A stretch of 64,000 nucleotides of DNA from positions 1 to 64,000 of the forward strand of contig CADCVQ010000087.1 in NCBI GenBank assembly GCA_902806175.1, in the 5' to 3' direction. Origin of the DNA: an uncultured Solirubrobacteraceae bacterium. GTDB taxonomy: Bacteria > Actinomycetota > Thermoleophilia > Solirubrobacterales > Solirubrobacteraceae. A model generated the notes under the pieces. The model was not told the DNA's origin. It worked only from the letters and a program-made list of their open reading frames with translations, and searched no databases. The translations under genes and the position numbers were made by a program. Of the stretch, positions 11,502 to 22,495 are shown one piece after another (the stretch's first letter is position 1; each line of letters starts with the position of its first letter).

Positions 11502-13901
<2,400 letters not shown>

Positions 13902-16421: not shown

Positions 16422-18497
16422 TCAGGTCGGCTTGACGGCGCTGCAGCCTTCGTGCTGCACGCAGACCGCCACGCTCAGGACCCGGCTGGTGAAGCCGACG
16501 TTCGCACAGCCGGGCTGGCTGTCGTTGGTGTCGTAGTACGGCGACTGGAAGTTCGGCCACGATGCCTCGGTGACCACGCGCGCGTAGGCGCGGTGGCCGT
16601 CGGGATCGCGATCGCAGACGTCGACCGTGTGACCGGCGTTGCGAGTACAGACGACGCTCGGATCCGACGGATGGGTCGCGCAGACGTCTCTCGCCGGGGG
16701 GCGCGGCGGCGCAGGCGCAGGCGCAGGTGGCGGGGGTGCCGGTGCCGGTGCCGGCGGCGGTCCCTGCGGGAACGTCGAGCTGAAGGCGCTGCAGCCCTCG
16801 GACTGCACGCATACGGCAACCCCGAGGACCCGCCCCGCGAAGGAGATGTTCGCGCAGCCGGGCCGGCTGTCGTTCGTGTCGTAGTACGGCGACTGAAAGC
16901 CGGGCAGGGAAGCCTGCGTGACGACGCGCGCGTAGGCGCGGTGCCCGTCGGCGTCACGATCGCAGACATCGACGGTGAAGCCGGCGTTGCGCGTGCAGAC
17001 GACGCTCGGATCGGAGGGATGTGACGCGCAGACGTCCTGCGCCGCGGGCAGCGCCGGCGCGGGCACCGGTGCGGGTGGCGGCGGTTGCGTGTCCGTCGAC
17101 GTGAAGGCGCTGCAGCCCTCGTACTGCACGCACACGGCAAAGCTCGCGACGCGGCTGGAGAACGTGACATTCGCACAGCCCCGCCGACTGTCGTTCTCGT
17201 CATAGAACGGCGACAGGAACGCCGGCGTCGATGCGTCGGTGATGACGCGGGCGTAGACGCGGTGTCCGTCGGCGTGGCGGTCGCAGACGTCGACGGTGCG
17301 CGCGTCGTTGCGCACGCAGACGACGCTCGCCTCCCGCGGGTGGCTGACGCAGGTGCGACGGCCCGGTACTCCTGGCAGCGACGACGTGCGCCCCGCCGGT
17401 CGCCGGACGTCGGGCCGGCGTCCCACGGGCCAGTCGAGCGACTTGTGGGTGAGGCGGCGATCGCGGGTGTTGCAGATCGGCACCTTTCTTGACCCGCGCT
17501 TCACCATGCGCTGCAGCGCGTAGTGGTAGTAGATGCGCCAGTCAGCGGGGGGCCTGAACGTCACGTCCTGGTGGCCGACGCCGCACTGCCCCTTCGGGCT
17601 CTTGCGCGGCCCACCGACGATCGGGTTGCCGGGCAGCCGGTGAAACCCGCCGTTGGGTCGCACCGACCTCGCCACGCCGACGCCGTAGCTGCGATCCGTG
17701 TAATCGCCGCCGCTGTAGAAGAGGTAGTACCTGCCGTCCTTGAAGACCATCGTCGGAGCCTCGACGCTGATGCCCTCCCACCCCTCTGCGCGCAGCAGTT
17801 CCCGGATGCCGCCGAGCTCGACGCGGTTGCGCGCGACGCCGGAGAAGTTGACCCGTCGGATGACGATGCGCTTGACGTGCCCCGCGCGCCGCGCCCGGGG
17901 GTCGGGGTCCTCCTTGTAGAGCAGGTACGCCTGGCTGCCGGCGAAGAACAGCGACGCGTCGATCATGCTGAACCTGTAGGTGCGATCGCAGAGCGCGCGC
18001 TTGCCGGAGATCAGCATCGGGACGTAGCCGTCGGCCCTGCGGACCGCGATGCCGATGCAGTTGCGCCGCGTGGCCGCCGTCTGCCCGCGCTTCTTGGGGC
18101 TCCTGAACCGGGCCGGAATCTTCCGCAAGGCGGCGTAGACGGCTACGCCGAGCGTCGCGCCCTCGTACAGCTGCGGTGCCCAGAACGACCCACCCACGAT
18201 CCCTCCGGGAATGCTGGCGAGGACACGCTCGCCGGTGTAGCACCAGTTGATCCCGTCGGCCGAGCGCCGGATACGCAGCCCCTCCGCCACCGGCGAGGTC
18301 GCCACGAGCGCGTAGCCCGTGGCGGATGTCGACACGCCCGGGTCGGCCGCACCCTGGGTGACGCTCGGCGGCGACGCGCAGTTCGCCTGCGCTGTCGCCG
18401 GTGCGGGGAGGACCGCGGCGAGCGCGAGCGCGCTGAGGAGCGCCGGCACAAGCGCCGCGCGCCGTCGGGACCGACGGGAGCAGACGATCGGCGTCAT
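16422..18497 (-). CDS. Secreted GH43-like propeller with three C-terminal six-Cys modules
   Basis: The 691-residue precursor starts with a signal peptide (about 1-37). Residues 40-365 resemble a GH43-type five-bladed propeller: Asp52 in AADPGV, WAPQLYEGA, Asp180 in SMIDASLFF and Glu247 in VEAPTMVFKDGRYYLFYSGG occupy the base, pKa-modulator and acid positions, and VGHQDVTF follows as in that family. Three copies of an 83-residue module (382-464, 489-571, 605-687) follow, joined by Pro/Ala-rich linkers. GH43 enzymes cleave arabinan, xylan and related glycans, so an extracellular polysaccharide target is likely but unproven. The start overlaps the stop of the upstream phosphoesterase gene by 4 nt. 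Confidence 0.75.
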   Translation of the reverse strand: MTPIVCSRRSRRRAALVPALLSALALAAVLPAPATAQANCASPPSVTQGAADPGVSTSATGYALVATSPVAEGLRIRRSADGINWCYTGERVLASIPGGIVGGSFWAPQLYEGATLGVAVYAALRKIPARFRSPKKRGQTAATRRNCIGIAVRRADGYVPMLISGKRALCDRTYRFSMIDASLFFAGSQAYLLYKEDPDPRARRAGHVKRIVIRRVNFSGVARNRVELGGIRELLRAEGWEGISVEAPTMVFKDGRYYLFYSGGDYTDRSYGVGVARSVRPNGGFHRLPGNPIVGGPRKSPKGQCGVGHQDVTFRPPADWRIYYHYALQRMVKRGSRKVPICNTRDRRLTHKSLDWPVGRRPDVRRPAGRTSSLPGVPGRRTCVSHPREASVVCVRNDARTVDVCDRHADGHRVYARVITDASTPAFLSPFYDENDSRRGCANVTFSSRVASFAVCVQYEGCSAFTSTDTQPPPPAPVPAPALPAAQDVCASHPSDPSVVCTRNAGFTVDVCDRDADGHRAYARVVTQASLPGFQSPYYDTNDSRPGCANISFAGRVLGVAVCVQSEGCSAFSSTFPQGPPPAPAPAPPPPAPAPAPPRPPARDVCATHPSDPSVVCTRNAGHTVDVCDRDPDGHRAYARVVTEASWPNFQSPYYDTNDSQPGCANVGFTSRVLSVAVCVQHEGCSAVKPT
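16437..16685 (-). repeat. Six-Cys secreted module, copy 4
   Basis: Residues 605-687 of the GH43-like protein, 83 residues long. Conserved frame: CxxHP, VVCxRN, VDVCDRDPDGH, YYDTNDS, GCAN, AVCVQ, EGCSA. The six cysteines probably form three disulfides, and DRDPDG has the DxDxDG pattern of calcium loops. Confidence 0.85.
16785..17033 (-). repeat. Six-Cys secreted module, copy 3
   Basis: Residues 489-571 of the GH43-like protein, 83 residues, closest in sequence to copy 4 (CxSHPSDPSVVCTRN, DRDADGHRAYARVV). A 33-residue Pro/Ala-rich linker separates it from copy 4. Confidence 0.85.
17106..17354 (-). repeat. Six-Cys secreted module, copy 2
   Basis: Residues 382-464 of the GH43-like protein, 83 residues and the most divergent of the four. 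The DxDxDG loop reads DRHADG here. All six cysteines are kept. A 24-residue Pro/Ala-rich linker follows. Confidence 0.85.
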
Positions 18498-19849
18498 CGC
18501 GTTGCGCGGTGGCAGCCTTCGGCGCCGCGATCGTTGTTCGCCGCGCGGTCCGTGCTGACAGCGGAGACAAAGCGCCAGCCGTAGTTGCCGTTGCCGAGCC
18601 TGAGCTGCAGGACGCCGTGATCGGTGTTGTCCGTGACGCGGCTGTTGGGTTCCTTCCTTCCGGACCTACGCAGCGTCTTGCCGCCGGTGCCCACGATGAA
18701 CAGCCGGAAACGCCGGGTGTTCTTGAACACCAATCGCTGCGCGGGGTCCGAGCGACCGAAGCGCTCGTACTGATGCGCATGGCCGGCGAGCACGACGTCT
18801 CCGCCTCGGCCCCAGAACTCCTCGATCAGCGGCCGCAGCTGCGGGGTGTCGAAGTTGTCATACGACGAGTCCCAGTACGGATGGTGCATGAACATCAGGC
18901 TGCAGCTGCGCGGGTTGGCGGCCATGTCGCGCCGCAGCCAGCGGTGCTGCTCGGCGCCGCGGGCACACACGCGCCGCTGCCGCGCGCAGTTGGAGTTGAT
19001 CGCGTACAGGCGCCACGAGCCGACGTCGAAGGCGTACCAGCCCTTGTCGCGCTCGCCGAAGCGGTTCGTGCGGGACCGGTCGAAGAACTCCCAGTAGCCG
19101 AGGGCTCGCGGCGTGTGGTACTCGTGGTTGCCCAGCACAGGAAAGGTGACGGGCCGCAGAAACCCCCAGTCACGGTTGTAGAACTGCTGGAAGTCAGGCA
19201 GCGAGCCGTCCTGGTACTGGATGTCGCCCAAGGCGAGTACCGCCGCGGGAAACCCGGGATTGCCCCGCGCGCGCTCGCTCTCGATGATCTTGCGCGCGGT
19301 TGCCGCGGACTGGCAGGTCGTCGGGTCCGCTGCTGCGCGCTGTGGTCCGTTGCAGGAGATGTCACCGGCCGCGTAGACGACGGGCTCGGCGCGTGACGCG
19401 GATGCGCTCGGCGCCGGCGGGGCGGGCGGTGCCGGCGGTGGTGGCGCCGCGGGTGGCGGTACGGCGGGGGGCGCGGTCGACTTGAACGCGCTGCAGCCCT
19501 CGAACTGCACGCACACGGCGACGCCGAGGACCCGGCTGGGGAAGGTGATGTTCGCGCAGCCCGGCTGGCTGTCGTTGTCGTCGTAGTAGGGCGACAGGAA
19601 GCCCGGTTGGGAAGCGGCGGTGATGACTCGCGCGTACGCGCGGTGTCCGTCGGCGTCGCGATCGCAGGCATCGACCGTGGAGTCGTTGTTGCGCACGCAC
19701 ACGACGCTGGCATCGGACGGGTGAGCGACGCACACGTCGACCGCCTGCGCGCGCGATGGCTTCAGGCTCGCGCTGACGAGCAGGACCACCAGGCCGCACA
19801 GGCAGATGCCGACGAGCAGCCTTGCCACGATTGCACGCGGTCTCGTCAT
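18494..19849 (-). CDS. Secreted calcineurin-like metallophosphoesterase with N-terminal six-Cys module
   Basis: The 451-residue precursor has a signal peptide (about 1-36), one 83-residue six-Cys module (39-121), a Pro/Ala-rich linker (122-150) and a metallophosphoesterase domain. All metal-binding blocks are present: GD at 162-163, GDIQY at 208, GNHEY with Asn241/His242, HH at 322-323 and GHAHQYER with His357/His359. The pattern is that of purple-acid-phosphatase-like enzymes, which hydrolyse phosphate esters outside the cell. It is the first gene of a two-gene operon with the GH43-like protein and shares the module with it. An AGGAG ribosome site lies about 8 nt upstream. Confidence 0.85.
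   Translation of the reverse strand: MTRPRAIVARLLVGICLCGLVVLLVSASLKPSRAQAVDVCVAHPSDASVVCVRNNDSTVDACDRDADGHRAYARVITAASQPGFLSPYYDDNDSQPGCANITFPSRVLGVAVCVQFEGCSAFKSTAPPAVPPPAAPPPPAPPAPPAPSASASRAEPVVYAAGDISCNGPQRAAADPTTCQSAATARKIIESERARGNPGFPAAVLALGDIQYQDGSLPDFQQFYNRDWGFLRPVTFPVLGNHEYHTPRALGYWEFFDRSRTNRFGERDKGWYAFDVGSWRLYAINSNCARQRRVCARGAEQHRWLRRDMAANPRSCSLMFMHHPYWDSSYDNFDTPQLRPLIEEFWGRGGDVVLAGHAHQYERFGRSDPAQRLVFKNTRRFRLFIVGTGGKTLRRSGRKEPNSRVTDNTDHGVLQLRLGNGNYGWRFVSAVSTDRAANNDRGAEGCHRATR
19487..19735 (-). repeat. Six-Cys secreted module, copy 1
   Basis: Residues 39-121 of the metallophosphoesterase, 83 residues, same cysteine frame as the three copies in the neighbouring gene (CVAHPSDAS, VVCVRN, ACDRDADGH, YYDDNDS, GCAN, AVCVQ, EGCSA). 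Confidence 0.85.
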
Positions 19850-21433: not shown

Positions 21434-22495
21434 CTACGCGACGTAGACGGGCGTCCCGACCGGCGAGCGCGCATAGAGCGAGATCACGTCGGGAATGCGC
21501 ATCCGCACGCAGCCGTGCGAAGCGTCGGTGCCGAGCGAGGAGTAGGCGCCGGGATCGATGCCGTGGATGCCGGCGCCGCCGTTGAAGGCCATCCAGCGCG
21601 CCTTGATCGGGTTGTCCGGCCCGGGCGGGATCGTCTTGCCGGCGAGGTCGCCCGCCCACTCGCTGTTGGGCACGCGCCACTTGGGGTTGGTCTCCTTCCA
21701 CTGCACGTCGTACAAGCCGGCGGGCGTTTCTAGGCCCGCGCGCCCGACGGCGATCGGCCAGCTGCGCAGCGGCTCGAGGTTCTCGTAGAAGCGCAGGACG
21801 TGGTTCTTGCGGTCCACGACGATGTACGCGGGGTACCGCGCGGCCAGCTCGTCGGTGGTGACCGTAGGCGCGACCGCGAGCATCCTGACGCTGATGTCGG
21901 CCGGGCGCTGACGGTTCTGCACGGCGCGCTCGAGGCTGCGGTGAAGCGCGGTCGCGTCGATCCGCGAGCCCATCCGCTCGGGCACGCGCCGCAGCGCGCC
22001 GCCGTCGGGCTGCACCGACGCCTCGACCGGCGCCACGTACGTGAAGGCCGCGACCTCCTGCACGAGGCGGGGCAGGACGCCGCGCGCGTAGCGCGTCGCC
22101 AGCGGGATCGACGACTGCATCTTCGCGCCGCTGACGGCGCGCAGGACGCGTGCCCCCAACCAGCCGCGCCGGCTGTCGGCGAGCGCGTGCTCGAGGGCCT
22201 CGTCGATGTCCGCCCTGACGCGCAGCTGGGCGGGGCTCAGGACAAACGTCTTGGCGGGCGTGTGGACGCGCAGCGCGCGCTGCTTGGGCGCGACCGCGCG
22301 GGCGTGCACGAGCCGCTCGGCGGCCTCCGTGTCCAGGCCGCCGACATCGACGCCGCCGATGCGGATGCCCGGTGCGAGCCGATCCGCTTGCGTGCTGTCA
22401 TAGAGCGTGGCGGCGCCCGCGATCAGCCCGAGGAGCGCCACACACGCAAGCAGCACGCGGCGGCCGCCGCTACGTCGTCGCCTGGGACGGGTCAC
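21434..22495 (-). CDS. Secreted L,D-transpeptidase (YkuD domain)
   Basis: The 353-residue protein has a basic N-terminus and signal anchor (13-32), a central domain with internal similarity to peptidoglycan-binding/VanW-like regions, and a YkuD catalytic domain. The active-site segment HGIDPGAYSSLGTDASHGC places the catalytic cysteine at about 329 with SHGCVRM. Such enzymes make 3-3 cross-links in peptidoglycan or attach proteins to it. GTG start. Confidence 0.92.
   Translation of the reverse strand: MTRPRRRRSGGRRVLLACVALLGLIAGAATLYDSTQADRLAPGIRIGGVDVGGLDTEAAERLVHARAVAPKQRALRVHTPAKTFVLSPAQLRVRADIDEALEHALADSRRGWLGARVLRAVSGAKMQSSIPLATRYARGVLPRLVQEVAAFTYVAPVEASVQPDGGALRRVPERMGSRIDATALHRSLERAVQNRQRPADISVRMLAVAPTVTTDELAARYPAYIVVDRKNHVLRFYENLEPLRSWPIAVGRAGLETPAGLYDVQWKETNPKWRVPNSEWAGDLAGKTIPPGPDNPIKARWMAFNGGAGIHGIDPGAYSSLGTDASHGCVRMRIPDVISLYARSPVGTPVYVA

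Follow-up and report, generated by a model that had tools for sequence, protein, structure and literature searches.

In the genome of an uncultured Solirubrobacteraceae bacterium (assembly GCA_902806175.1) a small cysteine-rich module is found in five copies distributed over three proteins with different partner domains. Four copies lie in the window (positions 1 to 64,000 of contig CADCVQ010000087.1, the whole stretch analysed), where two overlapping genes code an apparently exported calcineurin-like phosphoesterase and an apparently exported GH43 protein. The fifth copy is the carboxyl terminus of a protein from another contig, C151, that combines a helix-turn-helix (HTH) domain with a predicted transmembrane (TM) segment. 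This distribution within one genome supports an explanation that we favour without going so far as to call it probable: the module would target two exoenzymes and also sense the same ligand through a one-component HTH-TM protein.

Five copies of the module in three proteins

Alignment and profile searches reproduced the arrangement described in the initial annotation of this DNA, with four gapless copies, one N-terminal on the metallophosphoesterase and three C-terminal on the GH43 protein. The minus-strand cores, delimited from Cys to Ala, lie at positions 19487-19732, 17106-17351, 16785-17030 and 16437-16682 and have a pairwise identity of 68-84%. Each has 82 residues; the equal lengths agree with the earlier description, whose size of 83 includes one flanking residue. 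The four-copy profile gave five matches in the source genome (4.1 Mb, 97% complete, 1.6% contaminated), the four window copies and a single one outside their locus, on contig C151 (143.5 bits). With a five-copy profile, of which they are themselves a part, the window copies reach 172-178 bits (E at most 8.4e-51).

The six cysteines named initially are invariant in all five copies, as are 47 of 88 columns in total, the cysteines being a minority of them. The DxDxDG loop is variable, reading DRHADG in the first GH43 copy and DRDLDR, together with NGS, in the C151 copy. A calcium loop of the EF-hand or dockerin type was rejected, D3 being His in the first GH43 copy and G6 being Arg in the HTH copy; the calcium binding formerly suggested from DxDxDG and NDS is weakened by a loop that is broken in two of five copies. 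The ratio of nonsynonymous to synonymous substitutions (dN/dS) is 0.19-0.52 in 10/10 module pairs. Since these values are below 1 at dS of 0.47-0.95, the modules appear to be kept by selection and their duplication is not fresh.

In the C151 protein HTH_31 (E 1.2e-8) precedes a run of basic residues, a single segment of strong hydrophobicity and the C-terminal module. HTH_31 and HTH_3 are both above Pfam cut-offs. The hydrophobic segment has 19 residues and a mean hydropathy of 2.66 and is preceded by basic residues; from hydropathy and charge, assessed by eye, we infer an N-in topology with the module outside. Such is the sequence layout of a membrane-integrated one-component regulator, with an N-terminal DNA-binding domain, a single TM segment and a C-terminal outside domain. 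Of the other four copies, that of the phosphoesterase is the closest to the HTH copy (73%, versus 65-67% for the three GH43 copies). For the region from HTH to TM, 60 related genomes gave no relative at E <= 1e-5. Contig C151 has 4246 bases. Its tetranucleotide distance to the window is 0.161, while window pieces differ from the rest by a mean of 0.164; composition alone is not decisive for C151 because loci from other genomes of the order reach 0.175.

Relatives and predicted fold

The initial annotation recognised no named domain in the module, and no characterised family emerged from Pfam, NCBIfam or PDB sequences. The Pfam matches within the modules (E up to 10) are limited to WW_like (E 0.043) and FIT1_2 (E 0.097), neither of which comes near its cut-off. 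NCBIfam gives no match there, and the module profile finds no PDB chain sequence at E up to 10. Confident copies were confined to the source genome among 396 genomes of the phylum (E <= 0.001), 232 of the order and 399 of the class, three samples that overlap; in 394 genomes of a further class, to which genome G023 belongs, there was no confident copy and there were three weak matches. At most 13 candidates per genome were scored (at most 23 in the order search), and distant copies may escape for that reason. No relative of the module was found in IMG/VR, GTDB 220 contigs or phages, searches in which records near the source genome were possibly excluded. A strict DNA pattern for C-D-x3-D-G-x3-Y plus a codon starting with G matched 9 of 326 genomes, with no relative beyond the window.

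Several candidates were set aside. Matches in 18 further genomes of the order (E 0.001-0.1) and 5 of the class (E 0.001-0.02, two of them places already seen in the order search) were judged by eye to be chance, as were the weak matches L102 and L103 from the 394-genome sample. PHROG 22612 matched the whole GH43 protein (1.1e-5) but only two of five single modules, at best 0.0086; at E <= 1 it also matched 6 of 14 control genomes (loci partly read), and it was not used. A match on a Haladaptatus plasmid (E 2) is antisense to an annotated gene and was dropped.

Locus L104, a further weak match in the 394-genome sample (E 0.0034, columns 7-85), reads as a short secreted protein in which VTVCDNRSDGKRA, SDTNGAGNSC and VLLEVCVQ follow one another as in the module. 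A tblastn search from L104 led to L105 (E 0.02); searches from L105 and L104 gave overlapping lists, nearly all Streptomyces, of 16 plasmid records at E <= 1, counting that of the query, and of 12 at E <= 10. The alignment has 18 rows, L104, L105 and 16 further places (H11, H17, H22-H24, H26-H28 and H30 were left out), of which some may not belong because they were found only at E > 0.1. This group (L104-L121), mostly from Streptomyces plasmids with one Nocardioides, has the core GD..(l/v)tvCD...DG..a.a.v. Counted by eye, 14/18 rows have the CD cysteine, 14/18 a middle cysteine and 12/18 a late pair.

Comparison of the module with the group profile by hhalign gave 89.8% and 91.5% with L104 included. 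With L104 removed to lessen circularity, L105 having nevertheless been reached through it, the result was 72.6% with a score of 29.3; the best of 300 column shuffles reached 21.6 and the module in reverse 10.1. Masking columns 23-34, which hold the CD-DG motif, lowers the score to 8.6 and the signal is lost. The group hidden Markov model scores the modules at 22.0, 20.0, 18.2 and 17.1 bits, and the HTH copy at 8.2 bits. A distant relationship between the module and these small secreted proteins is probable, not proved, and hangs on the one CD-DG motif; the kinship to single-domain actinobacterial hypothetical proteins with a CD-x-DG...GC...C layout proposed earlier is sustained to that extent. 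The listed genes of the group are annotated 'hypothetical protein', and none of the 11 proteins scanned (10 plus L104) exceeds a Pfam or NCBIfam cut-off. L104 has no relative in IMG/VR or phages and L106 none in phages, under the same possible exclusion of records near the source genome. Members L105:1809-2294, L110:501-752 and L112:501-695 fall in stretches without a listed gene, the plasmid tables being incomplete.

AlphaFold2 was run twice with different first sequences. The best models are all-beta and of medium confidence only, with mean predicted local distance difference test (pLDDT) values of 68.7, 65.8, 65.1, 40.0 and 35.3 for the models of the first run and 74.6, 62.1, 61.5, 56.1 and 55.4 for those of the second; the fold prediction is shaky because these means spread so widely. 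Much of residues 44-58 has pLDDT < 50. All six cysteines are placed in strand or bridge residues. Many of the listed PDB neighbours of both models are immunoglobulin-like or fibronectin type III (FnIII)-like, a resemblance that may come from a widespread arrangement alone and says nothing of function.

The gene pair and the proposed role of its modules

The coordinates of the gene pair and of the fifth copy are collected in the table. Signal peptides were called by eye and from hydropathy, and export is to be read as apparent or probable throughout.

Table. Features of the phosphoesterase-GH43 gene pair in the window and location of the fifth module copy.
Feature	Position	Strand	Basis
Phosphoesterase gene, calcineurin-like, apparently exported, 451 aa, module N-terminal	18494..19849	-	open reading frame, Pfam, alignment
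Phosphoesterase probable signal peptide, residues 1-36, end AQA, hydropathy maximum 2.86	19742..19849	-	by eye
Module copy 1, 88 residues with flanks, directly after signal peptide	19475..19738	-	
Pro/Ala-rich linker, module to catalytic domain of phosphoesterase	19385..19474	-	by eye
Calcineurin-like catalytic domain	18512..19384	-	Pfam, alignment
ATGA overlap (4 nt), phosphoesterase stop and GH43 gene start	18494..18497	-	
GH43 protein gene, apparently exported, 691 aa, three C-terminal modules	16422..18497	-	open reading frame, Pfam
GH43 protein probable signal peptide, residues 1-38, end AQA, hydropathy maximum 2.19	18384..18497	-	by eye
GH43 domain	17511..18365	-	Pfam, alignment
Module copy 2 (GH43-1), 88 residues with flanks	17094..17357	-	
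Pro/Ala-rich linker, copy 2 to copy 3	17037..17093	-	by eye
Module copy 3 (GH43-2), 88 residues with flanks	16773..17036	-	
Pro/Ala-rich linker, copy 3 to copy 4	16689..16772	-	by eye
Module copy 4 (GH43-3), 88 residues with flanks, C-terminal end	16425..16688	-	
Fifth module copy (L014), outside the window	contig C151:1297-1560	+	profile search

The two overlapping exoenzyme genes are probably co-translated. No promoter- or terminator-like sites were found (0.2 and 1.2 expected). The GH43 protein matches Glyco_hydro_43 (PF04616; E 3.1e-18, 66.6 bits versus a cut-off of 32.2) and the phosphoesterase matches Metallophos (PF00149; E 4.7e-10, 40.7 bits versus 21.5). Relatives of both enzymes were compared from plus-strand loci only. 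Residues D163, D209, N241, H242, H322, H357 and H359 of the phosphoesterase, the presumed metal ligands by the calcineurin-like motifs, are invariant with respect to four relatives. In the GH43 domain the acidic D18, D146 and E212 (numbered in a 328-aa segment), presumably the catalytic D, D and E, are invariant with respect to two, L050 and L052. Apart from an Arg/Pro/Ser stretch between the GH43 domain and the first of its modules, the linkers are rich in Pro and Ala as described initially (by eye). Elsewhere in the window, positions 11502-13901 of the plus strand code a UvrA-like protein of 799 aa and 21434-22495 of the minus strand a protein whose C-terminal stretch resembles L,D-transpeptidases (SHGCVRM), both recognised by eye.

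In the five phosphoesterase relatives scanned in the order, an N-terminal accessory domain occupies the same place and differs: it is a PD40 propeller in L056 and L058, Laminin_G_3 in L057 and a part without a named domain in L055 and L066. A scan of one GH43 relative showed a lectin-like GH43_C2 at its C-terminus. The swapping of accessory domains at the N-terminal position among the phosphoesterase relatives speaks for a binding function of the module. The GH43 domain was found in 3/60 relatives and 0/6 genomes of the same genus (E <= 1e-8) and the phosphoesterase in 24/60 and 1/6, a sparse occurrence that makes the pair look accessory to this species.

The earlier proposal that the module tethers both enzymes to a common target agrees with a shared accessory module, but it is incomplete; with the fifth copy predicted to lie outside the membrane on an HTH_31-TM protein, sensing needs consideration as well. 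In the explanation that we favour, the module would be an extracellular recognition domain, small, rich in cysteine and of predicted all-beta fold, with putative disulphides, that directs the phosphoesterase and the GH43 protein to their target. In the single-pass C151 protein it would be exposed outside, and the DNA-binding domain would receive a signal when the module binds the same putative ligand or the enzymes that carry modules. The ligand may be a glycan or a glycan/phosphate polymer, and the HTH protein would regulate transcription and control the gene pair. If so, ligands of orphan membrane regulators could be guessed from enzymes with the same ectodomain and substrates of orphan enzymes from regulators sharing their domain.

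Several observations weigh against this combination of targeting and sensing. The HTH gene sits on a different, short contig from the gene pair, and no operator-like word common to their upstream regions was found, the longest shared word having a length of 7 that was equalled by 59/60 randomised pairs. HTH-TM proteins are not always transcription factors, RodZ being an example. Copies were found in the source genome only, which leaves no basis for comparing co-occurrence across species. Structure searches do not single out a carbohydrate-binding fold, because their top rows are a superoxide reductase, first in Foldseek for both runs (E 0.41 and 0.087), and a designed protein, best in VIA (Z 6.2 and 6.3). 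No VIA neighbour reaches Z >= 8, and Foldseek against PDB and BFVD gave no fold match at E <= 0.001.

A plain targeting module that anchors the enzymes to the wall or to a polymer, and is a mere anchor or a leftover of domain shuffling on the HTH-TM protein, without signalling, would account for the module's position and linkers, which suit an accessory module, and for three tandem copies on the GH43 protein, which suit avidity. It is rated unlikely, though worth keeping in mind, since the HTH copy retains the six cysteines and has a dN/dS of 0.28-0.43 versus the other four copies, and the HTH-TM-ectodomain order is recurrent. The phosphoesterase module directly after the signal peptide and the position of all six cysteines in the predicted strands or bridges would also suit a structural unit, a cysteine-stabilised cap or propeptide serving export or protease resistance without specific binding. 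A propeptide does not stand in tandem at the C-terminus or as a membrane ectodomain, however, and most of the invariant columns are non-cysteine, so that this role seems improbable. Nor do we give much more than slight credence to homotypic docking, in which modules would bind one another and the membrane HTH protein would hold both enzymes at the cell surface: a module common to a membrane protein and two apparently exported enzymes of one genome speaks for it, while the single-domain secreted proteins, should they be related, would then be left without a partner on their own chain. The C151 protein could finally be a RodZ-like cell-shape protein with the module as its outside domain, not a regulator. 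RodZ likewise has an HTH-TM-beta ectodomain layout and a weak NCBIfam RodZ match was found (E 0.0014), but its score of 18.4 compares with a cut-off of 208 and HTH_31 and HTH_3 exceed theirs in Pfam, which makes this identity very improbable.

Comparison with known systems

In titles and abstract starts of open-licence PubMed Central (PMC) papers, no account matching the module, no HTH-TM protein with an ectodomain shared with exoenzymes and no function of DUF2690 were encountered. The module resembles the small secreted Streptomyces group in size, in the CD-DG core and, for most rows, in the middle and two late cysteines that follow. It differs by two extra cysteines, C3 and C14, and by its fusion to enzymes and to an HTH-TM protein, while the cysteines of the group are not constant. 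Its predicted all-beta fold and its size are similar to those of CBM56 and FnIII-like beta sandwiches, but the described carbohydrate-binding module (CBM) families have no Pfam or PDB-sequence match to it. Among CBMs of known structure, CBM56 has Z 4.8 and 5.5 in VIA, and the RsgI4 sensor domain has Z 4.7 and 5.0, all of them values below 8 and hence uninformative.

DUF2690 (PF10901), an ectodomain of Streptomyces HTH proteins, was searched for and gave 23 matches (L079-L101) in 9 of 15 chosen genomes, mostly of genus g49, presumably Streptomyces; among 14 control genomes B. subtilis has a match. Judged by eye, an HTH-like part and a hydrophobic segment come first in 11 of the 23 loci (L080, L081, L084-L086, L088, L090, L092, L095, L097, L099), and only a hydrophobic part is seen in the printed stretch of four (L082, L083, L089, L091). 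Three are short and secreted (L079, L087, L100), four are long with an NlpC/P60 look (L093, L094, L096, L101) and L098 is short and unclear. Pfam scans of two loci confirmed the HTH kind for L086 and the NlpC/P60 kind for L093. DUF2690 was rejected as a homologue of the module (hhalign probability 0.15%, no hmmscan match). It is similarly placed as an outside domain in HTH_31-TM proteins, at the ends of NlpC/P60 proteins and in short secreted proteins; the difference is that no sequence relation to the module was detected. Unless DUF2690 and the module have diverged too far to align, an outside domain common to exported enzymes and HTH-TM proteins seems to have originated on at least two occasions.

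Membrane-integrated one-component regulators are an established class, and ToxR-like members share with the C151 protein an N-terminal DNA-binding domain, one TM helix and a C-terminal outside sensor (PMC5936718). The C151 protein has HTH_31 rather than a winged HTH, and its module is common to exoenzymes. In RsgI proteins carbohydrate-binding modules, CBM42 included, serve as outside sensor domains, and the RsgI anti-sigma factors of Clostridium thermocellum likewise use an enzyme-type binding module as the ectodomain of a single-pass signalling protein (PMC12203970). The RsgI N-terminal sigma-inhibiting domain is not among the Pfam (hmmscan) matches of the C151 protein, for which all five families listed are HTH, and no sigma factor partner is implied because HTH_31 takes the place of the RsgI domain. 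By analogy, sensing an outside polymer with an exoenzyme module might have an actinobacterial counterpart to RsgI that works without sigma factors, with HTH_31-TM-exoenzyme module as a general plan and the module and DUF2690 as independent cases; we regard this as a tentative generalisation, under which the function of DUF2690 would become directly testable in laboratory strains.

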